Part shown: positions 1 through 61,922 of the stretch, in pieces
How positions within the stretch are numbered: position 1 is the stretch's first letter
Layout: each line of letters begins with the position of its first letter
DNA from: Sulfurimonas paralvinellae
Lineage (GTDB): Bacteria > Campylobacterota > Campylobacteria > Campylobacterales > Sulfurimonadaceae
Assembly: GCF_014905135.1 (NCBI RefSeq)
Contig: NZ_CP041406.1
Coordinates: forward strand, 930,001-994,000
DNA length: 64,000 nt
Reading direction: 5' to 3'
Made by a program: the position numbers and the translations under genes
Notes under the pieces: generated by a model
Database searches by the model: none
The model's input: only the letters and a program-made list of their open reading frames with translations
What the model was told of the DNA's origin: nothing

Positions 1-1162
1 TGTTTAAGTGCTGTGCCGTCTCTACGGCTTTATCAAGCACTGCATAGTCAAATTTTTGTGCAACTTTTTCCATTCTTTTGAAAGAGCCGTGCGTGATAGG
101 GTTTTGAGAAATGACACCGCAATACTCCGGCATGTTCTCTGCGAAATGTCGTGTGCCTATCTCATTTGCTATACTGATGATCTCTGGTTTATTGACTGTT
201 GCCAATGGACGCAGAACAAGTTTGTTCGTTACCTGGTCGATGAGGGCAAGGTTGCGCAGTGTCTGACTTGAGACCTGTGCGACACTCTCTCCTGTGACAA
301 GTGCATCTATCTCCATTGCATCGGCAACTTTCTCCGAAGCGATAAGCATGAGACGTTTGAGTGTTACCCCCATGTACGTAGGAGGAGTGGAGTGAAATAT
401 CTCTTCTATGACATCATCAAAAGGTACAGAGATAAATTTGACCTTATGTGAAGAGCCAAATTTACTCCAGAGATAGAGTGCCACCTGTTTAACACCGATC
501 TCATGTGCCATACCACCGAGATTAAAGAAGATGAAATGTGTTTTTATACCCCGTTTCATTGTCAGGTAAGAGGCAACTGTCGAGTCAAATCCACCGGACA
601 TCAAGGAGAGGATATCTCCCTGTGTTCCTATTGGAAAGCCGCTTAATCCTTTATATTTTGCCGTGATGACATTGAGCTGATTCTCAATAAGCTCCATCTG
701 TACAACAACATCAGGATTTTTAAGATCGACATTTTTTGCTTCGGAGTTTGCAAGGAGATGTCCGCCGACAGTTCGCTCTATATCTATTGAGGTAAAAGAG
801 TGCTTTCCTGAACGTTTGACACGGACGACAAAAGTTTTATCTTTGAGTGAATCGGCAACAAGCTCACGCACTTTGACCTTTATCTTCTCAATCGTATCCA
901 TCTCATCAAACTGTAAAACTTCAAGGATCATCTCTATACCGGGAGTGTCAAGTAGTTTTTGTCTTACTTCGGGAAGAAATTCCTGAGGCGAAAAAACTTC
1001 AAGTTTATCAGAGAATTTAGAGACATCGACAGATTCATCGATGCGTTTTAAAATGGTTAAAAGATTGTTATAAAGCTGTCCGGTCATCTGACGTTTGGCA
1101 GAGGAGCCTTTGATCATTATCTCGGGAAACAGCTTGAGTATGAATTTTTGTTTTTGTTGCAA
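1..1162 (-). CDS. thiI: tRNA 4-thiouridine synthetase ThiI (partial, C-terminus outside window)
   Basis: ThiI adenylates U8 of tRNA and transfers sulfur to make 4-thiouridine; in many bacteria it also feeds sulfur to thiazole synthesis. The reading frame is open from 1162 to the left edge (387 codons). It begins LQQKQKFILKLFPEIMIKGS, the usual ThiI N-terminus leading into the ferredoxin-like and THUMP domains. The PP-loop signature SGGFDS lies around 587-611, and a CGVIS stretch near 113-121 holds the conserved catalytic-type cysteine. The start is a TTG at 1160-1162 with a TAAGG-like ribosome site just upstream; no ATG fits. It lies 15 bp after adk in the same direction, so the two are probably co-transcribed. 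Whether a C-terminal rhodanese domain is present cannot be seen here. Confidence 0.93.
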   Translation of the reverse strand, partial: MQQKQKFILKLFPEIMIKGSSAKRQMTGQLYNNLLTILKRIDESVDVSKFSDKLEVFSPQEFLPEVRQKLLDTPGIEMILEVLQFDEMDTIEKIKVKVRELVADSLKDKTFVVRVKRSGKHSFTSIDIERTVGGHLLANSEAKNVDLKNPDVVVQMELIENQLNVITAKYKGLSGFPIGTQGDILSLMSGGFDSTVASYLTMKRGIKTHFIFFNLGGMAHEIGVKQVALYLWSKFGSSHKVKFISVPFDDVIEEIFHSTPPTYMGVTLKRLMLIASEKVADAMEIDALVTGESVAQVSSQTLRNLALIDQVTNKLVLRPLATVNKPEIISIANEIGTRHFAENMPEYCGVISQNPITHGSFKRMEKVAQKFDYAVLDKAVETAQHLN

Positions 1163-1177
1163 TGGGGTGCCTTACTT

Positions 1178-1747
1178 TTAGAGTCTGGAGTTTATAAAAC
1201 TTTCCATCTCTTGGACTATTTTATCAATAGAATCTTCACCTGAAATAACTACAAGACGATTTATACTTGAATAAAATTTACGAATCTCTTCAAGAGGCTC
1301 TCTGTAAACTTTCATTCGGTTGTTAAATACCTTCTCATCATCATCGGCACCACGGGCGCGGCCAAGCACTCTCTTTCTTGCTGTCTCTTCACTGACTCTG
1401 ACTTCTATAACGGAGACCAGCAGTACTTCATCTGTCTTTTGGAGATATTTGTCAAGTTCTATCATCTGCTCTATACTGCGTGGATAGCCGTCAATGATGA
1501 CAACATCCGTAGGTGCTGATTTAATTGCATTTACGATTGTCTCTATGACGATCTCAATAGGAACGATAAGCCCTTGAGAGATATATTTTTCAATTATCTT
1601 GCCTCGTTCGCTGCCGCTTGCCACTTCAGCACGAAGCATATCACCTGTTGAGTAGTGGGTAATGTTGTCGTTGTGTTTGGCTATAAGTTCTGCGTCGGTA
1701 GTTTTACCGGAGCCGGGTGCTCCGATGATCAAAAAGAGTTTTTTCAT
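1178..1747 (-). CDS. adk: adenylate kinase
   Basis: Adenylate kinase interconverts ATP plus AMP and two ADP. The 189-residue protein starts [17 protein letters not shown], with the P-loop at residues 9-17. It has the AMP-site motif DGYPRS and a short lid region ([13 protein letters not shown]), so it is the short-lid form without zinc cysteines. It lies 3 bp after aspS and 15 bp before thiI, all on the minus strand. The order aspS-adk next to nadK matches the Campylobacter jejuni arrangement as I remember it (established knowledge, recalled, not checked). Confidence 0.96.
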
Positions 1748-1750
1748 TCT

Positions 1751-3508
1751 CTACGCTTTTGTCTGCTCACGCAGTCTAATGTGCAGGTCACGTAGTTGAG
1801 TGTTGTCTACAGGAGATGGTGCATCTGTTAAGATACAAGAAGCTTTTTGTGTTTTAGGGAAAGCGATGACATCACGGATAGATGCAGTTTTAGAAATAAG
1901 CATCATAAGTCTGTCGAAACCGATCGCGAAACCACCATGTGGAGGCGCACCAAATTTAAGTGCATCGAGTAAGAAACCAAATTTCTCCTGCGCTTCTTCT
2001 TCTTCGATTCCAAGGAGTTTAAAGACACTCTCTTGAATATCTTCTTTATGGATACGGATAGATCCGCCACCAAGCTCGACACCGTTAAGAACGATATCGT
2101 AAGCGATAGACTCTATCTCCTCCACATCATCACAATCCAAACTTTTTGGCATTGTAAATGGATGGTGCAGTGCTTTTACGCGGCCATCTTCGACTTCGAA
2201 CATCGGGAAGTCAACAACCCATACAAACTCATACTTGTCTGGATCGATAAGATTCATTTTCTCATGTTCTGCAATGAAGTTTCTAAAGCGTCCCATGTAG
2301 TCCCAGACAACTTTTTTCTCACCTGCACCAAAGAACACAACATCACCGACTTCAAGTTGAGTTCTTTCTATGATGAGTTGAATATCTTCTTCAGTGAAGA
2401 ATTTTGTAAGCGGGCCTTTGAGACCATCTTCTTTCATCTGGAAATATCCAAGACCATGGGCACCGAACTTACGTACGAAATCTTCAAAACCTTTCATTTC
2501 GCGTTTTGAAAATATCAAATCGGCACCAGGAACGCGAAGCGCTTTGATGCGGTTAATGTGAGGATTTTTAGCGATGTTTGTAAATATCTCATTGTCACAA
2601 CGCTCAAAAATGTCGATAACATCGACCATCTCAAGTCCATAGCGAAGGTCTGGTTTATCTGAACCATATTTTTCCATAGCTTCTTTGTATGTGATGCGGT
2701 TAAACGGTGCTTTCACCTCAACGTCACATGCCGCGAACATTGCACTAAGGAGATCCTCTGCTACTTTGATGACATCCTCTTGGTTACAAAAGCTCATCTC
2801 GACATCTATCTGAGTGAATTCCGGTTGTCTGTCTGCACGTAAATCTTCGTCACGGAAACATTTTGCTATCTGGAAATATCTGTCAAAACCGCCAACCATT
2901 AAAAGTTGTTTGAAAAGTTGTGGAGATTGTGGCAGCGCATAGAATTCACCGCTGTGAACACGAGACGGCACGAGATAATCACGAGCACCTTCCGGTGTTG
3001 ATTTTGTTAAAATAGGTGTCTCAACTTCAAGGAATCCATTTGCATCAAGGATGTTTCTAGCTGCTATCGCCGCTTTTGAACGAAGACGGAAAGCTTCATA
3101 TTTTGACGGGTCACGCAGTTCGAGGTAACGGTACTTAAGCGTTGTCTCTTCACCGACCTTCTCATCACCGATGACAAACGGAAGCGGCGCTGATTTGTTT
3201 TCAATGATTAGCTCTTTGACAACTACTTCGATAGCACCTGTTTTAAGGCGTGGATTTGTAAGTCCTTCACCACGGAGACGGATCGTTCCTTTTGCAATAA
3301 GAACATACTCGTCACGAACACTGTCTGCAACTTTATGTGCCTCTTTTGAATCCTCAGGGTCACAAGTAAGCTGGATAAGACCAGTTTTGTCACGTAAATC
3401 TATGAAGATGATCCCACCATGGTCGCGGTAGCTGTTCGCCCAACCGGTAAGTGTGACCTCTTCGCCAACATTTTTTTCACTTAAATCTGTACAGTAATGA
3501 CTTCTCAA
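1751..3508 (-). CDS. aspS: aspartyl-tRNA synthetase
   Basis: Class II synthetase that attaches aspartate to tRNA-Asp. The N-terminal OB-fold anticodon-binding domain (about residues 15-105) contains [19 protein letters not shown]. Motif 2 is seen as [19 protein letters not shown] and motif 3 as [13 protein letters not shown], with the bacterial GAD insertion between them. The length of 585 residues is normal. In Campylobacterota AspRS is usually the non-discriminating type that also makes Asp-tRNA-Asn for GatCAB; that specificity is inferred, not read from the sequence. It is divergent from nadK, with 92 bp between the two starts. Confidence 0.97.
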
Positions 3509-3600: not shown

Positions 3601-4455
3601 TTGCAAGCAGAAAAAATAAAAAAAGTGGGTGTTGTTTTACGCCCATCTTCACCGGAACTCAAACAAAATTATTTTGAACTTGAAAAGATTTTCAACAAGT
3701 ACGGCATAGAGACGACCATTGAGAGTATAAGCGGGGCAATGATAGGCATCATGGGTATGGAATTTGATAATCTCTGTCAAAGCTGTGATGTTTTGGTAAC
3801 ACTCGGCGGTGACGGAACACTTATCTCTGCCGTGAGACGTTCTTTTAAGCATGATGTTCCTGTTTTTGGCATCTATGCAGGTAATCTTGGTTTTTTGGCT
3901 GATATCAACATGGGTGAACTCGAAGCTTTTGTAAAAAGTCTTGTAAAAGGGGAGTACAGAGTTGATGAACGGGCTATTTTGGAAGCGACATTTCAAGAGA
4001 ATGAGAACGAAGTTACCATTTATGCTTTTAACGACATTGTCCTCACGAGACCTTCGGTTTCAAATATGATACATATCGAAACACTTGTCGATTCCAAGGC
4101 TTTTAATACCTATTATGGTGATGGTGTTATCGTCTCGACGCCGACGGGTTCGACTGCGTACAATCTTTCTGCAGGCGGTCCGGTACTGTTTCCGCTTACA
4201 AATGTATTTGCTCTCACGCCTATCTGCCCGCATTCCCTCACGCAGCGACCTGTTGTTTTACCAGGAAAGTTTTCTATAGAGATGAAAACACCGCAAGATA
4301 GAGCTTTGGTTATTATAGATGGGCAGGATAAGCATGAACTTGAAGCAGGGGAGAGCATTCACATTCAGCTTGCCCGCAAAACGGTCAAGCTTATTCACAG
4401 AGAAGAGTTTAACTACTTTGATGTTCTCAAAGAGAAACTCAACTGGGGTGATTAG
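3601..4455 (+). CDS. nadK: NAD kinase
   Basis: Phosphorylates NAD to NADP. The protein has the diagnostic GGDGT motif (residues 69-73), the GNLGFLADI segment and the glycine-rich TPTGSTAYNLSAGGP motif. Its 284 residues match the family length. Translation starts at a TTG preceded by an AAAAGAG ribosome site. In C. jejuni and H. pylori nadK is followed directly by recN (recalled); here the two are about 5.3 kb apart. Its last 4 bases overlap the stop of the convergent membrane-protein gene. Confidence 0.95.
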   Translation: MQAEKIKKVGVVLRPSSPELKQNYFELEKIFNKYGIETTIESISGAMIGIMGMEFDNLCQSCDVLVTLGGDGTLISAVRRSFKHDVPVFGIYAGNLGFLADINMGELEAFVKSLVKGEYRVDERAILEATFQENENEVTIYAFNDIVLTRPSVSNMIHIETLVDSKAFNTYYGDGVIVSTPTGSTAYNLSAGGPVLFPLTNVFALTPICPHSLTQRPVVLPGKFSIEMKTPQDRALVIIDGQDKHELEAGESIHIQLARKTVKLIHREEFNYFDVLKEKLNWGD

Positions 4456-5097: not shown

Positions 5098-6144
5098 ATG
5101 CTTCAAAAAACAGTGTTGTTTGTACTTGTAAGTATGTTTTTAACGAGTACATTGTTTGGTATGCAAAAACATGTAGTCATCTTGCAGTATCACAGGTTCG
5201 ATGAGAACAAATACCCGACAACGAGTATCTCAATGAAGCTTTTTACACAACAGATGGAGTATCTCACGCAGCATCATTATAATATATGGCCGCTTTCCAA
5301 AGTAGTGCGCTATCTGCAGCAAAAAAAACCGCTTCCGGATAAGACAGTTGTTATAAGCATTGATGATGCCTATAGAAGTACTTATACCAAAGCGTACCCG
5401 CTGTTAAAGAAATATCATCTGCCGTTTACACTTTTTGTCAGTACTCTGCCTGTTGATCACGGTTCCAAAAATTACTTAACCTGGGATATGATGCGTGAGA
5501 TGGCTAAAAACGGTGCCGAATTTGCCAATCATACCTATTCGCATCAGTATCTTGTTCGAGACAGATTGAAAGATCCACAAGATAAACAATATATTGTCGA
5601 TGAAATCCAAAAATCTCAAGAAAAGCTGGAAAAAGAGCTAGGCAACAGTGTAGCAACAAAGCCGAAGATGCTGGCATATCCTTTTGGTGAATACGATAAA
5701 AATCTTATGCATATAACAAAAGAGCTTGGCTATGTCGGTGTTGCCCAGAATTCCGGACCCATTTCAAGCGAAAGTGATTTTATGGCTTTGCGACGTTTTC
5801 CAATGTCGGGAGGGTATGGAGAGATGGAACAGTTTGTAGTGAAGATAAATACACTGCCGCTTCCTTTGTTATCGGTTGAGGATGAAGATACCATTGTAGA
5901 TGAAAGTAATAATCCGCCGCTTTTAACGTTGAGCTTGCAAAAACCGCTTAAAGGCTTTCAATGTTTTAATGCCAATGGAGAAAAGTTGAAGATGCAGTGG
6001 ATGAGTGATACTCAGGTGACAGTCCAGTCATCAAAGCCTTTGGCGTATCCGAGAGATCACTATACTTGTACCGCACCTACTCAAAATAAAGAGAGTTGGT
6101 ACTGGTACTCTCATCTCTGGGTTGTTCTTCAAAAACAGCCTTAA
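5098..6144 (+). CDS. polysaccharide deacetylase (NodB fold), exported
   Basis: The 348-residue protein has a signal peptide (residues 1-21, ending LFG) followed by a NodB-type carbohydrate esterase 4 domain. The metal-binding Asp-Asp pair is seen as VISIDDAY and the His pair as NHTYSH; a later AYPFGEYD stretch is also typical. Such enzymes remove N-acetyl groups from surface polysaccharide or peptidoglycan. About 90 C-terminal residues lie outside the recognisable domain, perhaps a small beta domain. It is convergent with the MEMO gene (4-bp overlap). The substrate cannot be told from the sequence. Confidence 0.85.
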   Translation: MLQKTVLFVLVSMFLTSTLFGMQKHVVILQYHRFDENKYPTTSISMKLFTQQMEYLTQHHYNIWPLSKVVRYLQQKKPLPDKTVVISIDDAYRSTYTKAYPLLKKYHLPFTLFVSTLPVDHGSKNYLTWDMMREMAKNGAEFANHTYSHQYLVRDRLKDPQDKQYIVDEIQKSQEKLEKELGNSVATKPKMLAYPFGEYDKNLMHITKELGYVGVAQNSGPISSESDFMALRRFPMSGGYGEMEQFVVKINTLPLPLLSVEDEDTIVDESNNPPLLTLSLQKPLKGFQCFNANGEKLKMQWMSDTQVTVQSSKPLAYPRDHYTCTAPTQNKESWYWYSHLWVVLQKQP

Positions 6145-6938
6145 CTAAAAGCCGCACTCATATAGCCGACGACCTGTGATTTGTCACCACTGGCATCTGC
6201 ACTTGTGCGATAATCCAGCAGAGTCGCTTGATAGCCTCTTTTTTTGGCGACATGCAGTATGGCTTCCACACCTATTTTTCCACACGCTTCACACCCCTGA
6301 TGTAACTCTGCAGGGTTGAGACTGGCGACGGCATCGAGGCAGATGCTGTCAAGTTTATTTGCTTTGTCGATGTCGTAGTAGTGACTCAGGTCTGTACTGA
6401 TAACGACGACAGTATCTTTGTCTTCTAAAAGATAGTCAATGATCTCTGCGAGATGTGCCGGATCTTCTTGACCATAAACAAGTTCTAGGACAGATACATC
6501 ACCCATATAGTTCTTGATAAAAGGCATTTGCACCTCTGTCGAGTGCTCTGCGTGAGCATCACTTTGAAATATAACTCCAAAGCGCTTCATTAATTCATCT
6601 GCTAAAGTGATGTCTATCTTTAAATTTCCAAAAGGTGTTTCGTAGCTGTCATATTTGGCTACGCTTACCCCCTTAAGATAGACCCGATGACTAGGTCCTA
6701 TGACAACCACACGTTTTGCATGCGTATTTTGCAGTACCCGAAAAGCGATGTTTGCCGTAAAAGCGGAGTAAACATACCCTGCGTGAGGTACAATGATGGC
6801 ACGTGGCTTGATCGCAAGAATGGATTTGTCCTGCAGGGCATCATCTATGATCTTGTTGTAATGATCGAACATTTGTGTTATCTCTAATTTGTCAACCGGA
6901 TAAAACTGTCCGGCAACAGCGTCTTTTCGTAAACTCAT
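6141..6938 (-). CDS. amrB: MEMO1-family protein (AmmeMemoRadiSam system protein B)
   Basis: The product has the MEMO fold, related to extradiol dioxygenases. It starts MSLRKDAVAGQFYP and contains IIVPHAGYVYS, IGPSHRVYL and STDLSHY, which carry the conserved His residues, then SGDKSQVVGYMS near the end. I chose the second ATG (6938) because AAGGAG lies 7 bases before it and only 1 base before the first ATG. That choice gives an ATGA overlap with the upstream radical SAM gene, so the two are translationally coupled. The biological reaction of the pair is not established. No AMMECR1 (component A) gene is present in the window. Confidence 0.88.
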   Translation of the reverse strand: MSLRKDAVAGQFYPVDKLEITQMFDHYNKIIDDALQDKSILAIKPRAIIVPHAGYVYSAFTANIAFRVLQNTHAKRVVVIGPSHRVYLKGVSVAKYDSYETPFGNLKIDITLADELMKRFGVIFQSDAHAEHSTEVQMPFIKNYMGDVSVLELVYGQEDPAHLAEIIDYLLEDKDTVVVISTDLSHYYDIDKANKLDSICLDAVASLNPAELHQGCEACGKIGVEAILHVAKKRGYQATLLDYRTSADASGDKSQVVGYMSAAFS

Positions 6939-9740: not shown

Positions 9741-11273
9741 ATGATAGAAAGATTTTACTTAAAAGATTACCTTAGTTTTGAAGAGAGTGAGCTTGAGCTG
9801 AAAAGTGGGCTTATTGTTTTTACGGGGCCGAGTGGGAGTGGGAAGTCCATACTTATGGAGTCCATTTTGTCTTCTGTTGGTGGATCTTCGTGTGATGCTT
9901 CTGTTTGTGAGTCGAGTGTCACATGGGAGATAGATGAGGATGCCTGCGGGATAGAAAACGATGATATCAATGTCTTTAAGCACATCAAAAAAGAGAAGTC
10001 ACGTTACTTTATCAACAACCAATCTCTCTCACGCAAGGCCATTTCTGCTGTAGCTTCAAAGTATCTGCGTCATTTGAGCTTGAAAGATTTTTCTGACTTT
10101 GAAAATGAGAACCTGCTCAATATCTTGGATGCGCGCATCGAAGCGAAGTCACATGACATCATGGCTTTAAAAGAGAAATATAGAGAGACATTTACAGAGT
10201 ACCACTGGACGCAGCATGAACTGCAGGTCATAGAAGAGGAAGAGAAAAAGATAGTTGAACTCAAAGAGTTTGCGGCCTTTGAGATACAAAAGATCGAAGA
10301 TGTCAATCCTGCTGCAGGTGAAGATGAGGATCTTTTGGAGATAAAAAAAGAGCTCTCACGCAAGGAGAAAGTGCTTGAGAGCATCGGTGGGGCTACGGAG
10401 ATATTTAACTATGAGCACTTGGTCTCATCGGCTTTGGAGAGTTTGGATGTGGAAAGCAGCTTTTTTGATGATGCCATGAATGAACTGCGTGCTGTTTTTG
10501 ACAGTGCAGAGGAGCGATTTAATGCGCTTGAAGATGTAGATGTAGAAGAAGTTCTTAACCGCATTGAAGAGCTTGGCGGCTTGAAGCGTCGTTATGGAAG
10601 CATTGAAGAGGCTTTGGAGTACAAAGAGCAGAAGAAAATAGAACTAGCAAAGTATGAGAACATAGAGATAGAAAAACATGGTCTTGAGCAGAAGTACGAG
10701 CAGTTGTCAGAAGAAGTTACGGCTTTGGCCGATGAACTCTCAAGCCTGCGTGAGGCAGAGCTGCCGTTTTTTGAAGCAGATCTCAATGCTTACTTGAAGA
10801 GTCTCTATCTGCGTGAGGCAAAAGTTACAATGCAAAAGAGATCATACGACAAAGCAGGGCAGGATGCAATCAACATAGAGCTAAGCGGTACAAAACTGGA
10901 CAAGATCTCTACGGGGGAGTTCAATCGTCTTCGCTTGGCTGTACTGGCACTCAAGTCAGAATTTATGAATAAAAACGGCGGTGTATTGATGCTTGATGAG
11001 ATAGATGCAAACCTCAGTGGTGAGGAGTCTATGAGTGTGGCAAAAGTGCTCAAAAAGCTCTCCAAACATTTTCAGATCTTTGTCATTTCACACCAACCGC
11101 AGCTTACTTCCATGGGCGATCAGCACTTTTTGGTCTATAAAGATGGTAATATTTCAAAAACAAAAGAGCTCAACTTGCAAGAGCGTGTTGATGAGATAGC
11201 AAGAATCATTAGTGGTGAAAACATCTCAGACGAAGCGAAAAAATTTGCAAAAGAGCTTCTGGAGGCAAGTTAG
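9741..11273 (+). CDS. recN: DNA repair protein RecN
   Basis: An SMC-like ATPase involved in double-strand-break repair. The Walker A GPSGSGKS (residues 29-36) lies in the N-terminal half-ATPase. A long charged coiled-coil region spans roughly 140-360. The C-terminal half carries STGEFNRLRLAVLAL (signature-like) and Walker B VLMLDEIDANLSG. At 510 residues it is slightly shorter than E. coli RecN. The stop TAG is directly followed by the tatD ATG, which suggests co-translation. Four TGCGTGAG octamers lie in this gene. Confidence 0.94.
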   Translation: MIERFYLKDYLSFEESELELKSGLIVFTGPSGSGKSILMESILSSVGGSSCDASVCESSVTWEIDEDACGIENDDINVFKHIKKEKSRYFINNQSLSRKAISAVASKYLRHLSLKDFSDFENENLLNILDARIEAKSHDIMALKEKYRETFTEYHWTQHELQVIEEEEKKIVELKEFAAFEIQKIEDVNPAAGEDEDLLEIKKELSRKEKVLESIGGATEIFNYEHLVSSALESLDVESSFFDDAMNELRAVFDSAEERFNALEDVDVEEVLNRIEELGGLKRRYGSIEEALEYKEQKKIELAKYENIEIEKHGLEQKYEQLSEEVTALADELSSLREAELPFFEADLNAYLKSLYLREAKVTMQKRSYDKAGQDAINIELSGTKLDKISTGEFNRLRLAVLALKSEFMNKNGGVLMLDEIDANLSGEESMSVAKVLKKLSKHFQIFVISHQPQLTSMGDQHFLVYKDGNISKTKELNLQERVDEIARIISGENISDEAKKFAKELLEAS

Positions 11274-13351: not shown

Positions 13352-14171
13352 AAGTCTCTGTTTTTTAGCAATAGCGACGCTCTTTTTTAGTGCCTGTAGT
13401 ACAAGAGGGCCGGGGGCATTCAGAAGTTACAACTATGCACCATCTTCAACATCAAAAACATACTGTGACGATAAAAGTGCCTACTGTGCAACGCCGCCGA
13501 AAAAGAAGTACTCAAAAGCGACGATGCGTCCTTATGTCGTTCACGGGAAAAAATACTATCCGCAGGTTGTCAGCGTAGGAGATACTTTCCGTGGGAATGC
13601 AAGCTGGTATGGTCCGAACTTTCATGGAAAATATACATCTAACGGTGAGAGATACAATATGTGGGCAATGACAGCGGCACACAAAACACTGCCGATGAAC
13701 ACCATTGTAAAAGTGACCAACAGAAGAAACGGAAAAAGTACTGTTGTGCGTATTAACGACAGGGGTCCATTTGTCTCTACAAGGATCATTGACCTTTCAA
13801 AAGCAGCGGCTTCGAAGATAAGTATGATTGGAACGGGGACTGCTCCTGTGACTTTGGAAGTGCTTGGGTTTGAAGGAAAAGGCAAGCGAAGTATTCCAAC
13901 GAAAAAAGAGCTGAAAAAGTTACCGCAGAAGATGTCCATGACAGGAAAATATGCAATTCAAATCGGTTCATTTTCCAAGATACAAGGCGCACTGCTCACG
14001 CAAGAGAAGTATGACAATACGGATGGATATAAAACCATCATCAAAGATGTGGATGGTGATGACGGGCGTATGTTTAAGGTATGGTTGACAGGTTTTAAAG
14101 GTGAGCAGGAAGCCAGAGACTATAAAGCAAACGGAAAATTTAGAAATGCATTTATTGTACGGGAGGATTAG
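13344..14171 (+). CDS. rlpA: RlpA-like septal ring lytic transglycosylase lipoprotein
   Basis: A 275-residue lipoprotein with lipobox FSAC (lipidated Cys at residue 18). A double-psi beta-barrel domain is seen as [19 protein letters not shown] through INDRGPF and [10 protein letters not shown]-terminal SPOR domain (about 205-275, from [11 protein letters not shown]) binds denuded glycan at the septum. It lies between the MltD-like gene and hisB. The SPOR domain suggests septal localisation. Confidence 0.92.
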
Positions 14172-14747: not shown

Positions 14748-15244
14748 TTAAGCTGTTGGTTCTAGATGTCGATGGTTGTTTAACCGATGGTAAAATTATA
14801 TACACCAGCAACTCTTCTGAGATAAAAGAGTTCAATGTAAAAGACGGGTTGGCAATCGCAAGCTGGATAAAAATGGGACATCATGTTGCCATTATTACGG
14901 GAAGAAACTCTGCTATCGTCAAAAGACGCTCAGATGAGTTGCAAATTCAACACCTGCAACAGGGTGTCAATGACAAAGCGACGGCACTGCGTGAGCTTGT
15001 TAGTTCTTTAGGGTTGGAGTTCTATGAAGTGGCTGCTATCGGTGACGATTTGAATGATTATGAGATGCTCTCTATGGCTGGGCGAAGCTTTACGCCAAAA
15101 GATGGTGTAAAAGATATACAAGAGATCGTCGATACGGTGCTTAGTAAAAAAGGCGGTGATGCAGCGGTGCGTGAGATGATTGATATTATCATTGAAGAAA
15201 ATGACCAAAAAGATGAATTTTTATCTCTTTGGATCAAGGAGTAG
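14744..15244 (+). CDS. kdsC: 3-deoxy-D-manno-octulosonate 8-phosphate phosphatase
   Basis: HAD-superfamily phosphatase that makes KDO for lipopolysaccharide. Motif I is LLVLDVDGCLTDG, motif II appears as IITGRNS and motif IV as IGDDLNDYEML. The 166-residue length fits the cap-less KdsC type. An AAGGAG near its 3' end (15236-15241) serves as ribosome site for the following lptC. Neighbours lptC and lptA support the LPS role. Confidence 0.93.
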   Translation: MIKLLVLDVDGCLTDGKIIYTSNSSEIKEFNVKDGLAIASWIKMGHHVAIITGRNSAIVKRRSDELQIQHLQQGVNDKATALRELVSSLGLEFYEVAAIGDDLNDYEMLSMAGRSFTPKDGVKDIQEIVDTVLSKKGGDAAVREMIDIIIEENDQKDEFLSLWIKE

Positions 15245-16243: not shown

Positions 16244-16870
16244 ATGGTTGATATCGTTGATGCAAAATTCATAACATCGGCTCCAAATTATAAAGCGGCA
16301 CCCGAATCGGACGAAAATAATGAAGTTGTCTTTATGGCACGTTCAAATGTCGGAAAAAGCTCACTTTTAAATGCTTTGACGGATCATAAAGGACTTGCAA
16401 AGGTCTCTTCTACACCGGGAAAGACAAAGCTGATAAACTATTTTGATGTGACATTTATGAACAGAGAGACTTCTGAAAAACTTGTAGCCAAGTTCGTAGA
16501 TTTGCCTGGTTTTGGTTATGCGAAGGTTTCAAAGGCACAGAAGCATGACTGGGAGAAGAATCTCACTGATTATATATCAAACAGAGAGCAGATAAAGATA
16601 TTTATTCATCTTATCGATTGCCGTCATCCGCATCTTGAGATCGATACACAGGTAAGCGAGTTTTTATTTGCTCACGCAAGAGAAGATCAGTATATCATTC
16701 AGATATTTACAAAGATCGATAAACTCAACCAAAAAGAGCAGAGTGCCCTGCGACGTGAGTTTCCAAATGCTCTTATGGTCTCAAGCGCTAAAAAACGCGG
16801 GACAAAAAAGATCATCAAAGAGATCTATGATATCTTAAAAGAGAGTGAAGACGCAATCGATGAAGATTGA
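16244..16870 (+). CDS. engB: ribosome biogenesis GTPase EngB (YihA/YsxC)
   Basis: An essential GTPase of large-subunit assembly. The G motifs are seen in order: ARSNVGKSS (G1), TPGKTKLIN (G2), DLPGFGYAKV (G3), FTKIDKLN (G4), SSAKKRG (G5). The length of 208 residues is normal. It overlaps the downstream argA-like gene by 11 bp. Confidence 0.95.
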   Translation: MVDIVDAKFITSAPNYKAAPESDENNEVVFMARSNVGKSSLLNALTDHKGLAKVSSTPGKTKLINYFDVTFMNRETSEKLVAKFVDLPGFGYAKVSKAQKHDWEKNLTDYISNREQIKIFIHLIDCRHPHLEIDTQVSEFLFAHAREDQYIIQIFTKIDKLNQKEQSALRREFPNALMVSSAKKRGTKKIIKEIYDILKESEDAIDED

Positions 16871-31265: not shown

Positions 31266-31917
31266 AATCAATTTTAGAGAATATGAAGTAGAGGTTATAT
31301 GTAATCCCCGCTTAAAAAACAGCTATATACACATCAGCCATAGCGGAGTTATTACGGTAAAAACCCCTCATAAATCCAAACGTTTTGTATCGGCTCTTTT
31401 AAATGATAAAAGCAGTTGGATAGAGAAGCAGATAGAAAAAAATGCTCTTCGTTCAAAAATTACAATAAATTTGGAAGATGAAGTGCTTCTTTTTGGTGAG
31501 ATATACAGCATTGACAGTGCTGAAGCGACAAAACTGCGTGAGAAGCTGCATAGACTGCGCACTGCAACCAAAGAAAAGGTTTTAAAGGCATATGACACTT
31601 TTTACAAAGAAGCAGCAATGCTATATCTCACGCAGGAGGCAAATAGGCAGGCAAAGAGAATGAATCTGCAGTTTAGTGGACTCAAATTTCGAAAAATGAA
31701 AAGCAGGTGGGGCAGTTGCAGTTCCAAAGGTATTGTTACATTCAACACCAAACTTATGAAACTTGAAAAAGAGTTGATACTTTATGTCGTGATTCATGAA
31801 CTTGCACACTTGGTGCACATGAACCATTCAAAGGCATTTCATGATCTGGTTGAAGCGTATCTTCCCAACTCAAAAGAAATTCGAAAACGCTTAAAAGCAG
31901 TAAGTATCGTCTCCTAG
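31252..31917 (+). CDS. YgjP-like zinc metallopeptidase (DUF45)
   Basis: A 221-residue protein with an HExxH site in YVVIHELAHLVHMNHSKAFH and a preceding MKSRWGSCSSKG, both characteristic of the YgjP/WLM group often associated with type I restriction systems or tRNA/repair neighbours. The start is TTG at 31252, preceded by AAAGGA inside queC. Its 3' end overlaps the convergent GH-like gene by 27 bp. Confidence 0.88.
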   Translation: MHTSKINFREYEVEVICNPRLKNSYIHISHSGVITVKTPHKSKRFVSALLNDKSSWIEKQIEKNALRSKITINLEDEVLLFGEIYSIDSAEATKLREKLHRLRTATKEKVLKAYDTFYKEAAMLYLTQEANRQAKRMNLQFSGLKFRKMKSRWGSCSSKGIVTFNTKLMKLEKELILYVVIHELAHLVHMNHSKAFHDLVEAYLPNSKEIRKRLKAVSIVS

Positions 31918-37516: not shown

Positions 37517-38342
37517 AGACCTCTTTTACACGCTTGACTTCATATTCTGTTCCAAAAAAACATGGAGATGTGTCATGTAGGTGTGCATAACCAAGGTCTA
37601 ACAGTCTTTCATGACCATTTATAGCGATACCGCCTGCTTTTTCATACACAAAAGCAAAAGGAAAGACCTCAAAAAGACGGCGTAGTTTTCCTTCAGGTTT
37701 GTCACTTGTCGCAGGATAGCTGAAAAGTCCACCGCCTTTGAGGAGTATTTGATGCAGGTCTGGAACCATGCCTCCGGAATAACGCAAACGATAGCCTTCA
37801 GCAAAAAAACCGTCTATCATTGCCTTATGGTAGAGAGGCCAGTTTTGCTGTGTGCCTCCCGGTGCCATAAGTTTGCCCTTTTGCGTGAGGCGTACTTCTT
37901 TTACAAATTCAAAATCACCGGCTTGCAGCAGGTAAAGTTTTACTTTATTATATGCAAAGACCATTTCCACACGCGGACCATAGACAACATAACAGGCCGC
38001 AACCATATTCTGTGAACCAAAATTACCTTCATAGATGCCAAAAATAGAACCGACACTCAGGTTTACATCTATAAGTGAAGAGCCGTCAAGTGGATCATAA
38101 GAGATGAAATATTTGCCGTTTTCATGCAGTACTTCTGCGTGTTCTTTCTCTTCTGAAGATATGGTATTTACATCTTCTACGCGTGAGAACTCTTCTGCAA
38201 TTATCATGTCGCATTTGATATCAAGCTCAAGTTGTGTCTCTCCGGAAGAATTCTCCTGTTGGGAGTAACCTATGTCTTTTACATCTATCGCTGTTTTTAT
38301 TCTTTTTGCGCTGATCTGTATCGCTTCAAATATTTTATCCAT
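37500..38342 (-). CDS. fbp: fructose-1,6-bisphosphatase, class I
   Basis: Gluconeogenic enzyme, needed in an autotroph to build hexoses. Class I motifs are [22 protein letters not shown] (metal and substrate site), [14 protein letters not shown] and [15 protein letters not shown] start at ATG 38342 ([11 protein letters not shown], 280 residues), since AGGAAG lies 7 bases before it; a longer in-frame reading would run into mobB. The mobB stop lies just 2 bases before this start. Confidence 0.94.
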
Positions 38343-38933: not shown

Positions 38934-39392
38934 ATGAAAACTTTTGCAATTATTTTACTTATAACGATACTTTTTAACGGTTGTGCACAGCAAAATGCAT
39001 TTGAAAAGTTTGATCTCAGTGCTACAAGAGAGTTGAGTGAAGATTCCATCCAGAGTCTAAAGATTACACAGGGTGATAAAATTATAGGCATAGTCAACGC
39101 TATTTATCTCAATAAAGTCTTACCGAATGAATACAAAGACAATGAATATTTTTATGTTTACTATTATATGAAAGAGGGCGATATGAATGTAAGTTTTACA
39201 CTTAACGGTGAGCCAAGTATGCTGCGTGAGGAACTCCCTGCCCAAAATGAGTTTTCAAACTTGACATCGTTCTTAGCCCCTTGGAGCAAATATTATCTGC
39301 TTGGATTTAAAAAGCAGGGAAATGTATTGAAATTATCAATTAACACCAATGTAGCAGCAAATGCTACTTTGGAGTTCGTAAAAGACAAATAA
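38934..39392 (+). CDS. small lipoprotein of unknown function
   Basis: A 152-residue protein with lipobox LFNGC (lipidated Cys17). The mature part is beta-rich, with a region of about 110 residues that may form an Ig-like fold. It is divergent from mobB and convergent with yggT. A lipoprotein gene in the same neighbourhood exists in C. jejuni (recalled). No motif suggests a function. Confidence 0.75.
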   Translation: MKTFAIILLITILFNGCAQQNAFEKFDLSATRELSEDSIQSLKITQGDKIIGIVNAIYLNKVLPNEYKDNEYFYVYYYMKEGDMNVSFTLNGEPSMLREELPAQNEFSNLTSFLAPWSKYYLLGFKKQGNVLKLSINTNVAANATLEFVKDK

Positions 39393-48519: not shown

Positions 48520-49308
48520 TTATCTTTTATCCTTCCAGGCTTCATCAAAACCCATTTTATTTTTTTCCATTTTTTGCACCAGTACAACAAGTCCAGCTCT
48601 TTTCATAATGTTTTTTACTTTTTTAGGCCATGATTTTCTGTAGTTAAATGAGTGAGGCTTCCCTCCAATGTAATCGATAAAATCATTATTTACTTTATGC
48701 GTGAGCAGGGCAGTATACCCATGATCAGCTATTATAGTGTTGAGCCATATTCGGGCTTCTTTGAAACTTTTTATATTTGAATCAGCACTTATCCATTTAG
48801 TGGCAAAATCATTAATGCATGCAGTATACGCTTTTTCTCGTAAGGTTTTATTGTATTTTAACAGTGCCAGATTTTCATAAGAACCAGCATAGGGTGATGG
48901 GCGGTAGTCTTTTTTAAGGCTTGGTGCTCTTGTTTTATAAGAAAGATCACTTTTTTTGCTTTTCTTTATCTCTTGTGGGTCAAAGAGGATCTTGTTTTTG
49001 GATTTTGAGTAGGGCAGATAGAGTGCTGGCAGTTCCGGATCACTCTTGTATGCCCCAAGACTTAAGATATTTCCTGTAATTTGAGAAACATATCCTCTTC
49101 CGTAGCCAGATTCTACACCAGCTATGGCAAGTATGGCAGCAGGAGGAACATGCTTTTCTTTGGATATTTTTATGGCTATAGGTGTAATCGTTTTATAAAA
49201 CTCTTTTACATGTTGGTATTTTCGAAGGCTGTATTGACTTGAAGCATTCAGCGTGCTCAATATGCAAAACAATAGAAATATATATGGTACGAGATATCGT
49301 GTATTCAT
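48520..49308 (-). CDS. Bax/FlgJ-like glucosaminidase domain protein, exported
   Basis: A 262-residue protein with a signal peptide (residues 1-24, ending LNASS). A glucosaminidase-type domain follows, with the catalytic Glu probably in AIAGVESGYGRGYVSQITGN. The later YENLALLKYNKTLREKAY and ADHGYTALLTHKVNNDF fit the Bax/LytG group. It likely cleaves peptidoglycan glycan strands. Confidence 0.78.
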   Translation of the reverse strand: MNTRYLVPYIFLLFCILSTLNASSQYSLRKYQHVKEFYKTITPIAIKISKEKHVPPAAILAIAGVESGYGRGYVSQITGNILSLGAYKSDPELPALYLPYSKSKNKILFDPQEIKKSKKSDLSYKTRAPSLKKDYRPSPYAGSYENLALLKYNKTLREKAYTACINDFATKWISADSNIKSFKEARIWLNTIIADHGYTALLTHKVNNDFIDYIGGKPHSFNYRKSWPKKVKNIMKRAGLVVLVQKMEKNKMGFDEAWKDKR

Positions 49309-57204: not shown

Positions 57205-58596
57205 TTACGCCTTGGGCGCAATCATCTCTTCTGGTTTAACATACTCATCGAACTGCTCAGCAGTTAAAAGACCAAGCTCGATAGCCGTCTCTTTTAGCGT
57301 TGAGTTGTTTGCGTGAGCTGTTTTAGCGATTTTTGCAGCATTTTCATACCCAATATATGGATTTAACGCTGTTACAAGCATAAGTGAATTATGTAAGAAA
57401 TAATCTATTTTTTCTTCTACCGGTTTGATTCCTACTGCCGCATTATCATTGAACGATACAATTGAATCACTTAAAAGTCTTACAGACTGCAAGAAGTTAT
57501 ATGCAATTACCGGTTTAAAAACGTTGAGTTCAAAATTTCCTTGAGATGCTGCAATACCGATAGTTGTGTCATTACCCATTACTTGGCATGCAACCATAGT
57601 CACTGCTTCACTTTGTGTAGGATTTACTTTACCTGGCATGATTGAACTTCCCGGCTCATTCGCAGGGATCTCTATCTCCCCTATTCCACAACGAGGACCT
57701 GATGCCAACCATCTTACATCGTTCGCTATTTTCATCATATCTGCTGCAAGTGCTTTTAATGCTCCGTGAGCAAACACTAAAGCGTCATGTGAAGTTAAAG
57801 CGTGAAATTTATTTGGTGCGGTAATAAACTCATGACCTGTAAGTTCACTTAGTTTTTTAGCAACTCTTTCACCAAGTTCCGGGTGAGCATTTAACCCTGT
57901 TCCGACAGCTGTACCGCCAAGAGCAAGCTCACGCACAGCTTCGAGTGAATCTTTTGCCATTTTTTCAGACTTGTTAAGCATCTCGACCCAACCGCTGATC
58001 TCTTGACCAAGTGTTAAAGGTGTAGCATCTTGAAGGTGTGTACGACCAATTTTTACAATGTTGGCGAACTCTTCACTTTTTGCCTGAAGTGTTGCTTTAA
58101 GTTTTGCAATTGCCGGAAGAAGCTGTTCTTCAACTGCAATAACCGAAGCAACATGAAGTGCAGTCGGATAAGTATCATTTGAAGATTGAGACTTGTTTAC
58201 ATCATCATTAGGATGAACAAGTTTCTCTTTTTTGAAATCACCGCCAAGAATCTCTGTAGCACGGTTTGCAAGCACCTCATTGTTATTCATATTTGATTGT
58301 GTACCTGAACCTGTCTGCCAAACAACAAGTGGATAGTTCCCGTCAAGTTTCCCTGCAAGCATATCATCAGCAGCCTGTGCAATAGCATCTGCTTTAGCGG
58401 CATCAAGTTTTCCAAGGTCTTTATTGACAAGCGCCACTGCTTTTTTCAGGTAAGAAAATGCACGTGTAATTTCATACGGCATTTTTTCTTCACCGATTTT
58501 GAAATTTTGAATACTTCTTTGAGTCTGAGCACCCCAGTAAGCATCCTGTGGAACTTCAATCTCTCCCATAGTGTCTTTTTCTATACGAGTTTTCAT
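57205..58596 (-). CDS. fumC: fumarate hydratase, class II
   Basis: A 463-residue homotetrameric hydratase of malate and fumarate. The superfamily signature is [35 protein letters not shown] and [16 protein letters not shown] are also seen. It follows mdh by 3 bp. Three octamer-like TGCGTGAx copies (two exact) lie nearby in this gene and sucC. Confidence 0.96.
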
Positions 58597-58599
58597 TTT

Positions 58600-59556
58600 T
58601 TATTTCCCTTCAAAAAAATTATTTTTATTTAATGTGTCTATAAGTGTTTGCACTGATGCGCATGATTGTGCGAACATTGCGTTCTCTTTTTCATCTAGTG
58701 TAACTTCAATGATCTTTTCAGCACCTTTGGCACCAAGCATGACAGGTACACCGGAAACTACATCATTGTAACCATATTCACCATCAAGGCAAACTGCACA
58801 TGGATGAATCTGCTTTGTGTCCTTTAAAATTGCATCTACCATAATAGCTGTAGATTTTGCAGGAGCATAATAAGCTGAACCTGTTTTTAGGTAACCTACA
58901 ATCTCTGCTCCACCATGACGTGTTCTATCTACTATCTCATCGATCTCATCTTGCGTGAGGACATCTGAAAGTGGCACACCTGCAACTGTTGAGTAACGAG
59001 GCAGAGGAACCATGTCATCACCATGACCACCCATAACAGAAGCACGTATCTGTCCACCGCCGTATCCAAGTTTTTCCTGAATAAATGCAGCCATACGTGA
59101 GCTGTCCAAGATTCCGGCCATACCGATAACACGACTTCTGTCAAAGCCGCTTTCTTTGAGTGCTACATATGTCATTGCATCAAGTGGATTTGAAACCATA
59201 ATAACAATAGCATTCGGAGAATATTTTGCAATACCTTTGATTACATCTTTTGTAATGTTGGCATTTATCATAAGCAGATCATCACGACTCATTCCTGGAA
59301 GTCTCGGACTTCCTGCTGTTACTACAACAACATCACAATCGACTAAATCAGACATCTCTTCTGCAACACTAACAACGGTGTGACTTCTGACTGCTGACGC
59401 CGCTTGAGACATATCAAGCGCTTTTCCCTTTGCAACATCGATTTTGTTGTCACGAAGAATAATTTCGTGACAAGATCCAAGCATAGCAAGAGAGTAAGCT
59501 ACCGTTGCACCAACGTTTCCGGCACCTACTATTCCTACCCTTTTTCCTTGACTCAT
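58600..59556 (-). CDS. mdh: malate dehydrogenase (LDH-like type)
   Basis: An NAD-dependent dehydrogenase of 318 residues. The nucleotide motif is [20 protein letters not shown], then [18 protein letters not shown] (substrate Arg) and [15 protein letters not shown] (catalytic His). I use the ATG at 59556, 5 bases after GGAG, rather than the GTG at 59562 that touches the ribosome site. Confidence 0.94.
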
Positions 59557-59562
59557 ATACAC

Positions 59563-59744
59563 TCCTTCATATTAAGTACTATGATGCTTATTTTAGATAC
59601 ACTTAAACAATATGTGCGAACACATAACACTTAAGTATACTAAGCATCATGATAAGGTGAATTTTCACCTTTTATATGAAACATATTCACTGTTTCATAT
59701 AAAAAATGAAAAAATCATGCACCCTAAGGTGCATAAAACGATAA
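59563..59744. other. icd-mdh intergenic region with several hairpins
   Basis: Three inverted repeats lie here: ATGATGCTTA/TAAGCATCAT (59581-59590, 59641-59650), AGGTGAA/TTCACCT (59655-59661, 59664-59670), and a 13-bp pair TTTATATGAAACA/TGTTTCATATAAA (59671-59683, 59691-59703). The last could stop transcription or stabilise RNA ends. The icd terminator is listed separately. Confidence 0.55.
59711..59733 (-). terminator. terminator after icd
   Basis: On the minus strand the hairpin TGCACCTTAGGGTGCA (59733-59718) is followed by TGATTTTTTC, a clear intrinsic terminator 11 bases after the icd stop. Confidence 0.75.
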
Positions 59745-61922
59745 TTATATAGAACTAATAATATCGTTTAACGTTTTAGAAGGACGCATTGCAGCTTCTG
59801 CTTTTGCATCATCAGGGTGAAAATAACCACCGATATCTTGTGCTTTACCTTCAGCAGCAGCTAATTCAGAGAGAATTTTTTCTTCATTTTTAATAAGAGC
59901 TTCAGCAACTGGAGTGAACTTTTCAGCAAGAGCGGTGTCCGCAGTTTCTGTACTAAGTGCTTCAGCCCAGTAACGTGCTACCCAGTAGTGAGATGCCTTA
60001 TTATCTGCTTCTCCACATTTTCTTGAAGGTGCTTTGTCGTTATCAAGGTAACCTTCATTTGCTTTATCCAAAGCTTCAGTCAATGCGCCAATCTTAGTGT
60101 CCTCAGATTTTTGGTACATCATTCTAAGAGATTCTGCAAGTGCCAAGAACTCTCCTAATGAATCCCAGCGAAGGTGACCACATTCTAAGAATTGATCAAC
60201 GTGTTTTGGAGCAGATCCGCCGGCACCTGTTTCAAACAGACCGCCACCAGCTAACAACGGAACGATTGAAAGCATTTTAGCAGATGTTCCAAGCTCTAAG
60301 ATCGGATACATATCAGTAAGATAATCACGAAGAACATTTCCAGTTACAGAGATCGTGTTTTTACCGGCTCTTACTCTTTCATTTGTAAATCGTGTTGCAG
60401 AAGCAACATCCATGATTTTAATATCAAGACCAGTAGTATCATGATCATTTAGATATAGATTTACTTTTTTGATCATCTGTGCATCATGAGCACGATTTTC
60501 ATCTAACCAGAATACTGCAGGATCACCCGTAAGTTTTGCACGTTCAACTGCTAAGCGAACCCAGTCTTTGATTGGAATATCTTTTGCACGAGACATTCTC
60601 CAGATATCACCTTTTTCTACTTCAAAACTCATAAGAACAGTTCCGTCTTCTGCTGTAACTGTTACAGTACCGTCTTCAGCCATTTCAAAAGTAGTTGGGT
60701 GAGAACCATACTCTTCCGCTTTTTGTGCCATAAGACCGACATTTGCAACATTACCCATCGTAGTAACATCATATTGACCGTTTTTAACACAGTCTTTGAT
60801 CATTTCATCATAGAAGACACCGTAAGATGCATCTGGAATAACAGCAACACACTCTACTGCATCACCTTTACGATTCCACTGTTTACCACCTTCACGTACA
60901 ACAACAGGCATAGAAGCATCGATAATCACATCATTCGGAGCATTGAAGTTTGTTGTCCCTTTGTCAGAATCAACCATTGCAATTTCTGGATTATCAGAAT
61001 CAACTACTGCTTGAAAAGCTGCTTTTATTTCAGCTTCTTTTGCATGACCGGCGATTTTTTTCTCAAGATCAGCCATACCAAGATTAGGATTGACGCCAAC
61101 TTTTGCAAATACATCTGCATATTTATCAAATACTTCTTTGAAGAACACTTCAAAAGCATGACCGAACATAATAGGGTCAGAGATTTTCATCATAGTTGCT
61201 TTTAAGTGAATAGACCATAAAACACCATTTGCTTTTGCATCATCAATTGTTTTTTGAATAAACGCACGAAGTTTTTTAGCAGACATGAATGTACCGTCTA
61301 AAATCTCAGCATCAAGTGCATCAATAGTTTTAAGTTCTTTTCCATTTAAAGCGATTGTAACTTTTTGAGCTTTGTCCATTGTTACAGACTTTTCATTCCC
61401 GTAAAAATCACCGTCTCCATTCATATGTGCAACATACGCTTTTGAATTTTCAGAGAAAGGCTTCAATCTGTGTGGATGCTCTTGTGCATATTTTTTAACT
61501 GCGTGAGCTGCACGTCTGTCAGAGTTCCCTTCACGAAGAACAGGGTTAACCGCTGAACCAAGACATACGCTGTATTTTTCCTGAATAGCTTCTTCTTCTG
61601 CATTTGCAGGATTCTCAGGATAGTTCGGAATATCATATCCTTGAGATTGTAGTTCAGCAATACAATCTTTTAGTTGACCAACTGAAGCTGAGATGTTTGG
61701 AAGCTTAATAATGTTCGCTTCTGGTTTTTGTACCAGTTCACCCAGTTTAGAAAGTTCATCTTCAGCAAGACCCATTGCCGCTAAAACTCTACCTGCTAGT
61801 GAAATATCACTAGTTACAACTTCTACGCCTGCTTCTTTTGTAAAAGCATTTACGATAGGTAAAAGTGAATACGTTGCCAAAGCCGGAGCTTCATCAATTT
61901 TTGACCAAATAATTTTTGACAT
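59745..61922 (-). CDS. icd: isocitrate dehydrogenase, NADP-dependent monomeric type
   Basis: A 725-residue monomeric IDH; such large IDHs are unrelated in length to the ~400-residue dimeric type. SKIIWSKIDEAPALATYSLLPI, LGSAVNPVLREGNSDRRAA, WSIHLKATMMKISDPIMFGHAF and TGAGGSAPKHVDQFLECGHLRWDS are typical (each read in parts). It interconverts isocitrate and 2-oxoglutarate, the step next to Oor. Its terminator separates it from mdh, so it has its own transcript. Confidence 0.95.
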   Translation of the reverse strand: MSKIIWSKIDEAPALATYSLLPIVNAFTKEAGVEVVTSDISLAGRVLAAMGLAEDELSKLGELVQKPEANIIKLPNISASVGQLKDCIAELQSQGYDIPNYPENPANAEEEAIQEKYSVCLGSAVNPVLREGNSDRRAAHAVKKYAQEHPHRLKPFSENSKAYVAHMNGDGDFYGNEKSVTMDKAQKVTIALNGKELKTIDALDAEILDGTFMSAKKLRAFIQKTIDDAKANGVLWSIHLKATMMKISDPIMFGHAFEVFFKEVFDKYADVFAKVGVNPNLGMADLEKKIAGHAKEAEIKAAFQAVVDSDNPEIAMVDSDKGTTNFNAPNDVIIDASMPVVVREGGKQWNRKGDAVECVAVIPDASYGVFYDEMIKDCVKNGQYDVTTMGNVANVGLMAQKAEEYGSHPTTFEMAEDGTVTVTAEDGTVLMSFEVEKGDIWRMSRAKDIPIKDWVRLAVERAKLTGDPAVFWLDENRAHDAQMIKKVNLYLNDHDTTGLDIKIMDVASATRFTNERVRAGKNTISVTGNVLRDYLTDMYPILELGTSAKMLSIVPLLAGGGLFETGAGGSAPKHVDQFLECGHLRWDSLGEFLALAESLRMMYQKSEDTKIGALTEALDKANEGYLDNDKAPSRKCGEADNKASHYWVARYWAEALSTETADTALAEKFTPVAEALIKNEEKILSELAAAEGKAQDIGGYFHPDDAKAEAAMRPSKTLNDIISSI

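Follow-up and report, generated by a model that had tools for sequence, protein, structure and literature searches.

An exact eight-letter word of Sulfurimonas paralvinellae looks like a tag for DNA uptake

Introduction

Uptake sequences have so far been found only in the Neisseriaceae and the Pasteurellaceae, and we came across nothing to the contrary (PMC1626085). The DUS of the former family and the USS of the latter occur at about one copy per kilobase without orientation bias, have few one-base variants, are over-represented in relatives and prefer intergenic DNA (PMC1626085). DUS dialects differ within a single family (PMC3630211), and the receptor of the USS is predicted to be ComN (PMC12616744). 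In C. jejuni, which belongs to the same phylum as the organism studied here, uptake is motif-dependent and proceeds via methylated RAATTY and CtsM (PMC10046745); it is sequence-dependent and relies on a pilus-like system of type IV that involves comE and comEC. An initial annotation of the DNA analyzed here knew of no such word for Campylobacterota, and in the literature searched we found no description of an uptake sequence for the phylum, nor any report on DNA uptake in Sulfurimonas or Sulfurospirillum. Other frequent words serve as points of comparison, namely Chi sites, which prefer the leading strand and whose densities span about one per 2.2 kb, and HIP1 of cyanobacteria, an octamer that reaches a very high genome-wide frequency.

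Here we analyze the octamer TGCGTGAG of Sulfurimonas paralvinellae, starting from a stretch of 64,000 nucleotides (the window). Like the DUS, it is a short exact word, strand neutral, found some thousand times or more in a genome and thin in foreign DNA, with species dialects in one family. Its sequence and phylum are nevertheless unrelated to those of the DUS, the CTG core is not shared, it has no association with intergenic inverted pairs, and the words of Sulfurimonas (TGCGTGAG, ACATGTA, GGATGTA, AGATGCW) diverge more from each other than DUS dialects do. With the USS it has in common a strong consensus, few one-base variants, the lack of orientation bias, an origin by substitution and a density of about one copy per 1–2 kb, but it lacks flanking AT-rich motifs and is depleted, not enriched, in intergenic DNA. 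The motif of C. jejuni comes from the same phylum, yet it has six letters and is degenerate and palindromic, whereas TGCGTGAG has eight letters and is non-palindromic, which also sets it apart from the palindromic HIP1, likewise a highly frequent octamer. Finally, it resembles the Chi of RecBCD and AddAB in being a short word that is over-represented and not palindromic, in a genome that has AddAB; unlike Chi, it shows no replication-strand bias and is missing from sister species that bear AddAB. TGCGTGAG looks like a self-recognition tag for DNA uptake of a kind not previously known from the phylum.

Results and Discussion

A recount of the window returned the 29 exact copies that had been reported between positions 863 and 61507, 16 as TGCGTGAG and 13 as CTCACGCA. 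The accompanying estimate of about one chance copy per window proved accurate, as dinucleotide shuffles gave a mean of 1.07 and a maximum of 8, and under a Markov model the word ranks first among all octamers of the window (29 against 1.1). The counts of six one-base neighbors agreed with those noted before (TGCGTGAA 2, TGCGTGAC 3, TGCGTGAT 1, CGCGTGAG 4, GGCGTGAG 3 and AGCGTGAG 2), and all 24 neighbors together sum to 36. The 2.08 Mb genome contains 962 copies, one per 2.2 kb, while the reversed word used as a control occurs 33 times, so the genome-wide count lies 29-fold above the control and not near expectation. Nor are one-base variants equally enriched: in a 464 kb sample the exact word was found 231 times against 9.9 expected, and its 24 neighbors were in small excess only, the most enriched being CGCGTGAG (28 against 3.5). 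The extended form of the word is YTGCGTGAGV, and flank information is near zero outside positions −1 and +8. The initial observation is correct, and the signal is stronger than was claimed. A minor companion word, the palindrome CTCACGTGAG, has 13 sites in the same 464 kb against about 0.2 expected, and in genome G031 it stands 41-fold above codon usage.

The copies are spread over the whole chromosome on both strands and lie almost entirely inside genes. Four of those in the window fall within a recN/SMC-like gene (9741-11273, +), at 10028..10035 (-), 10355..10362 (-), 10747..10754 (+) and 10810..10817 (+). There is one in aspS (1751-3508, -) at 1766..1773 (-), two in metG (35363-37294, -) at 36317..36324 (-) and 36915..36922 (-), and one in a glutaminyl/glutamyl-tRNA synthetase gene (40985-43243, +) at 41361..41368 (+). 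Toward the end of the window, a fumarase-type lyase gene (57205-58596, -) holds copies at 57310..57317 (+) and 57928..57935 (-), a lactate/malate dehydrogenase-type gene (58600-59562, -) one at 58952..58959 (+), and the isocitrate dehydrogenase gene (59745-61922, -) one at 61500..61507 (+). Further plus-strand copies are found at 5492..5499, 6549..6556, 6780..6787, 14988..14995, 15168..15175, 31535..31542, 32206..32213, 37882..37889 and 39223..39230, and minus-strand copies at 863..870, 4237..4244, 5263..5270, 13995..14002, 16671..16678 and 31627..31634. By crude gene calls, intergenic DNA makes up 8.7% of the bases and has only 5 of 202 copies, although in one relative (G047) the word ACATGTA is enriched there (14 of 76 against 10.8%). 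Spacing showed no regularity beyond random (CV 1.27), and close pairs were not in excess, with 15 gaps below 100 bp against 13 expected.

A word that sits in genes might reflect codon-pair or peptide bias in expressed genes, or chance, and its commonest reading is indeed L-R-E (CTG CGT GAG). However, it exceeds the codon-usage expectation 22-, 14-, 19-, 17- and 47-fold across the five encodable frames, it does so on both strands, and close relatives of similar proteome outside the four species that carry it are devoid of it. Codon usage accounts for only about 6% of the coding copies. This frame-by-frame test refutes codon or peptide bias, to which we assign a negligible probability, and bears out the claim that no single peptide or codon pair lies behind the word. 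The enrichment acts at the DNA level, since it is 14- to 47-fold above codon usage in every readable frame. Among the coding places where the protein would permit the word, 217 of 414, about half, are occupied. The placement over the whole chromosome, on both strands and nearly always in genes, would also suit a binding site of a chromosome-organizing or regulatory protein. Nevertheless, binding sites normally tolerate variants and here a single exact word dominates, about half of the permissible coding places (53%) are filled, and sister species carry unrelated words, all of which makes such a site improbable.

Occupancy is not even. The stretches at 16.7-31.5 kb and 41.4-57.3 kb had been described as poor in copies, and both are sparse: the first has a sole copy at 21776..21783 (-), and the second, which contains an integrase gene, a sole copy at 48698..48705 (+), so that the region of the integrative element is not wholly empty as had been stated. 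In these parts of the window one of 8 permissible coding places is used at 16.7-31.5 kb and one of 8 at 43.3-52 kb, against 13 of 19 and 7 of 11 in dense stretches. Likewise, the plasmid (50 kb) had no copy in a 20 kb stretch (0 of 19 permissible places), nor had a polysaccharide island of 29.5% G+C (0 of 9). TGCGTGAG is thus thin in recently acquired DNA, as expected of an uptake sequence. The avoidance of plasmid and island could, however, fit recent arrival under any model in which a word is maintained in the core genome.

The copies are also kept. In a sister species at 77.3% DNA identity, 23 of 47 (49%) are exactly conserved, compared with 6 of 59 neighbors and 40 of 351 permuted words (about 11%) at the same identity. 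When sites were aligned to relatives without the word, near-misses were found, with 14 of 265 gapped and 3 exact. Copies arose via in-place substitution and not by insertion, because the word-less relatives show near-misses at the matching positions and few gaps. A small inserted repeat element is ruled out by the same mostly gap-free alignments and by flanks that are uninformative beyond −1 and +8.

The initial annotation had suggested searching relatives for the same word. TGCGTGAG is present in only 4 of 151 genomes of the family, all of one genus, and nowhere else in our sample of the phylum does it rise above about 4-fold over the control; the four species apparently correspond to one Sulfurimonas clade, with which the data are compatible. 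Other Sulfurimonas species carry other words, namely ACATGTA (up to 1764 copies), GGATGTA, AGATGCW and AAACGCCA, and the words are mutually exclusive among relatives. S. autotrophica is among the carriers of ACATGTA. ACATGTAR also fills another family of Campylobacterota, and its maximum is 3443 copies in a 3.0 Mb genome. Weak words of 20 kb samples include CAAACCGTCA in genome G073 and some that proved codon-driven, such as GGTCGT in genome G131, which is confined to the sense strand. The words of the relatives contain ACATGT, GGATG and GATGC, which resemble methylase or restriction-type sites, and the companion palindrome CTCACGTGAG is enriched too; both observations would suit a methyltransferase target that is kept, much like HIP1, for some purpose unrelated to uptake. 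On the other hand, TGCGTGAG with its Y and V flanks is neither a palindrome nor a usual methylase site, and we know of no case in which methylation alone raised a word 20- to 30-fold. We regard this explanation as unlikely.

The balance of orientations seen in the window holds genome-wide, with 488 forward and 474 reverse copies, and relative to genes 107 are sense and 123 antisense. Leading and lagging copies number 121 and 110 (52%, 95% interval 46–59%, p 0.51), with no skew toward the terminus, which rules out KOPS-type polarity, as had been argued from the window. These figures bear as well on a Chi-like role, by which TGCGTGAG would switch AddAB from degradation to recombination and selection for the repair of double-strand breaks would keep it frequent. 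In favor of this role, 17 genomes out of 18 have an AddB-type gene, among them the four that carry TGCGTGAG (open frame of 782 aa in three of these and 644 aa in G019), the density of the word is within the range of Chi, and coding-rich placement suits Chi. Even so, we consider it rather doubtful. The even strand distribution departs from the preference of known Chi sites, near relatives that have AddAB either lack a word of this kind or carry markedly different ones, and TACATGTA, a word of relatives, is near-palindromic and so not directional. Moreover, genome G123 has ACATGTAR at 7-fold and gave no AddB match, although a gap in the draft is possible.

Genes for pilin, comEA and comEC were found across the genus. 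In this strain comEC has one in-frame TGA, whereas it is intact in G031 and G019, which also carry TGCGTGAG; in the sister G147 it is broken in several places, and yet TGCGTGAG is at full density. An N-methyl pilin gene adjoins comEA in this strain, but the comEA-linked pilin was dropped as a receptor marker, as the linkage is absent in 24 other genomes. None of the competence genes searched for tracked the dialect, and the presence of AddAB, comEA or comEC was discarded as its determinant, each occurring in genomes that have a word as well as in genomes that have none.

We propose, with a probability of about 0.6, that the clade has in TGCGTGAG (YTGCGTGAGV) a DNA uptake sequence of its own for natural transformation. 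DNA bearing it would be bound or imported by preference, fragments with the word would be recombined into genomes more often, and point mutation together with biased uptake would have spread it until about half of the protein-tolerated positions were filled. Sister species would recognize other words, and these words may act as dialects that favor exchange with close kin and disfavor plasmids and foreign islands. DNA uptake would be the selecting step, and the dialect may be set by a pilin-type receptor or by an orphan methylase acting like CtsM of C. jejuni. The options offered initially were an uptake sequence, a Chi-like site and a modification target; the first is favored and the second disfavored, the word may be methylated, and a candidate uptake word read directly or in methylated form is the best explanation. 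Uptake is preferred over Chi because there is no replication-strand bias, because sister species have other words in its place although nearly all of them have AddAB, and because the commonest word of sister species is near-palindromic. Intergenic depletion, spacing no more regular than random, the lack of an excess of close pairs, the comEC stop in this strain and the broken comEC of G147 count against uptake, as does the occurrence of competence genes in species that have no word.

The wider proposition, for which we see even odds, is that Campylobacterota have their own family of uptake dialects, which bear no relation to the ones known from Neisseriaceae and Pasteurellaceae. It would comprise at least four to five exclusive words in Sulfurimonas (TGCGTGAG, ACATGTAR, GGATGTA, AGATGCW and AAACGCCA), one of them common to a second family, with repeated switches between sister species, a large share of permissible positions filled, and a recognition that is either new or a methylation-coupled extension of CtsM. 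If true, this would be a third independent origin, and several dialects in a single genus would allow tests of how specificity evolves, of switching and of species isolation. It would also show which word to add when transforming these environmentally important sulfur-oxidizing bacteria, and TGCGTGAG would be a ready marker of recently acquired DNA in their genomes.

Abundance and Location of the Octamer

Among the window's octamers, TGCGTGAG ranks first in over-representation when counts are set against a Markov model. It occurs 29 times (16 forward and 13 reverse), against a mean of 1.07 and a maximum of 8 in dinucleotide shuffles. Our recount agrees with the initial annotation, which had reported the same 29 copies, about equally divided, where roughly one was expected, and whose counts of one-base neighbors were each exact. 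The window spans C1:930001-994000 of its genome, which was placed in Sulfurimonas through named relatives of the window's aspartyl-tRNA synthetase (identity up to 95%). Over the two contigs of the genome (G000; 2,029,060 and 49,811 bases) we counted 488 forward and 474 reverse copies, compared with 16 and 17 of the reversed word, which served as control. In a 464 kb sample of this genome, made up of the window and twenty 20 kb stretches, there were 231 exact copies against the 9.9 expected from a third-order Markov model, and one-base neighbors were only slightly raised, the highest being CGCGTGAG (28 vs 3.5). Clear flank information was confined to positions −1 (C in 112 and T in 83 of the 231) and +8 (T in only 20 of the 231), and these preferences give an extended consensus, YTGCGTGAGV. 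The sample also held, on contig C1, 13 sites of a companion palindrome, CTCACGTGAG, which contains the same CGTGAG half and for which about 0.2 were expected (an enrichment of about 50-fold). This palindrome, also enriched in genome G031 and with no occurrence in the window, may be a second recognized form, or it may point to a methylase.

Nearly all copies lie within genes, 107 in sense and 123 in antisense; by crude gene calls, and with intergenic DNA lower in G+C, only 5 of 202 copies were intergenic against 8.7% of bases, fewer than predicted. Neither regularity of spacing beyond random nor an excess of close pairs was found. At about window position 35,000 the cumulative GC skew reaches its maximum, which probably places the replication terminus in or near the window. 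Leading and lagging strands carry 121 and 110 copies, respectively (p = 0.51), which, like the genome-wide counts, bears out the earlier observation that the two orientations are about equal.

Codon Usage and Foreign DNA

For each permissible place in predicted proteins, that is, each coding position where the encoded amino acids would allow the word, we computed its chance from the genome's own codon usage. One of the six frames would include a stop codon; in each of the five that can encode the word, observed copies were 14 to 47 times the expectation, which rules out codon bias as their source and upholds the claim that no single peptide or codon pair explains them. All frames together, 217 of 414 permissible places were filled against about 13 expected, so about half of the tolerated coding positions are occupied. 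The variants CGCGTGAG and TGCGTGAA stood at 0 to 14-fold over codon expectation, with low counts. A genome-wide protein-binding site would leave this exactness and saturation unexplained, and we consider it very improbable.

Most other stretches use 40–70% of their permissible places, but the word was found at 0 of 19 in 20 kb of the plasmid and at 0 of 9 in a cluster at C1:1120001-1140000 (29.5% G+C), to which a surface-polysaccharide function was assigned from protein sequences. Within the window, one of eight places is used at 16.7–31.5 kb and one of eight at 43.3–52 kb. The first region had been described as poor in copies, as it is; the second bears a phage-type integrase gene (45848-47425, minus strand), and the integrative element, which had been described as devoid of copies, is not wholly empty. 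The integrase stretch has 32.6% G+C, includes a Sel1-repeat protein and proteins without a Pfam match, and is likely an integrated element.

Clade Restriction and Alternative Words

When the related genomes were searched for the same word, only 4 of 151 from the family carried TGCGTGAG well above control: G000 (962 copies), G031 (757), G019 (621 in 1.3 Mb), and G147 (688 in 1.5 Mb). In a set of 259 genomes from the whole phylum, none besides these exceeded about fourfold control. In an aspartyl-tRNA synthetase tree the four stand together at an unresolved fork, which is consistent with one clade, though only 32% of bootstraps give them a single branch.

Unbiased searches for enriched words in further Sulfurimonas genomes, with enrichment demanded on both gene strands, returned ACATGTA (G059, G047, and G131), GGATGTA (G083), AGATGC (G087, G097, and G101), and AAACGCCA (G001); GGATGTA, AGATGCW, and AAACGCCA are based on samples of 47–124 kb and are less secure than TGCGTGAG and ACATGTA. 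Whole-genome counts of ACATGTAR bear this out: G059 has 1764 copies against 100 of the control, G139 has 1527 against 167, and G047 has 1120 against 138, while all four TGCGTGAG genomes are at or under control for it. On the same tree this label needs at least four changes. It is also abundant in most genomes of a second Campylobacterota family, f10, reaching 3443 copies vs 159. A codon-corrected matrix of species by word is nearly diagonal, each species using its own word at 20–80% of permissible places and those of others at about the chance level. For G053 no clear word emerged from this matrix. G071, G079, and G039 show only a faint ACATGTA excess (about 1.5–1.7-fold) while their near relatives are fully enriched, possibly as relics decaying after the drive was lost. 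Several f10 members (G261, G313, G428, G440, and others) hold about 2,500–3,400 ACATGTAR copies per genome, the densest case seen. In G083 (sampled stretches L045, L062-L065, L187, and L188), GGATGTA extends to a consensus near CTTNGGATGTAG, which exceeds the other dialects in length.

Maintenance, Origin, and Interpretation

In an alignment with G031 (77.3% identity, 82 kb), 23 of 47 TGCGTGAG copies were exactly conserved, compared with 6 of 59 one-base-neighbor words and 40 of 351 permuted words of the same composition; with G147 the figures were 8 of 13 copies vs 28 of 96 permuted words. In relatives without the word, homologous sites are mostly one to four changes off, with 3 of 251 ungapped sites exact and 14 of 265 gapped. 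Hence the copies originated by in-place base substitution in a single lineage, where they have been held since.

A word that is exact, strand-neutral, core-coding, thin in foreign DNA, born by substitution, and swapped in sisters fits molecular drive by biased uptake: preferential uptake of word-bearing DNA would drive its accumulation in the core genome. The evidence from sequence supports the view that TGCGTGAG works like an uptake sequence, one of three options in the initial annotation, and makes it a candidate member of that class; it shows the features of such sequences, but differs from them in lacking the non-coding preference, regular spacing, and inverted pairs that they generally have. 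Sequence-selective uptake of the kind proposed has a precedent in the phylum, as Campylobacter jejuni chooses DNA via a methylated RAATTY motif and a type IV pilus-like system (PMC10046745). By this analogy, recognition of TGCGTGAG may be direct or may depend on its methylation, and the near-palindromic sister word TACATGTA and the companion CTCACGTGAG lend some weight to the latter. A modification target with no link to uptake seems unlikely. The initial annotation knew of no such description for Campylobacterota, and our literature search found no uptake sequence described for Sulfurimonas, Sulfurospirillum, or the phylum, a negative that is not proof of absence, since subscription journals were mostly outside the search.

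Competence and Recombination Genes

N-methyl pilins were found in 10 of 10 genomes searched, comEA in 29 of 30 (in a few as a weak match inside a larger protein only), and comEC in 20 of 20, and 17 of 18 genomes encode an AddB-type nuclease; none of the four follows the presence of a word in these 10–30 genomes per gene. The remaining option, a Chi-like recombination site, is weakened because AddAB-bearing relatives have different words, leading-strand bias is absent, and TACATGTA is near-palindromic. In G083, which carries GGATGTA, comEA is represented by a weak match inside another protein, with no clear gene.

The comEC gene of G000 (C1:254671-255942) retains full-length similarity and shows a single in-frame TGA, whose estimated position falls within about the final 10–15% of the gene, and that of G147 (C74:7242-8495) is broken by several stops; it is intact in G031 and G019. 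Either competence was lost recently in G000 and G147, with words that have not yet decayed, or the word is independent of comEC, or the G000 stop is a sequence error; a recent loss of transformation in both genomes is possible. A pairing not conserved in the other species examined was seen in G000, where comEA adjoins a gene for a 219-aa N-methyl pilin-like protein (sampled stretch L101, 1617-1865 and 916-1575, respectively; C1 near 1382800).
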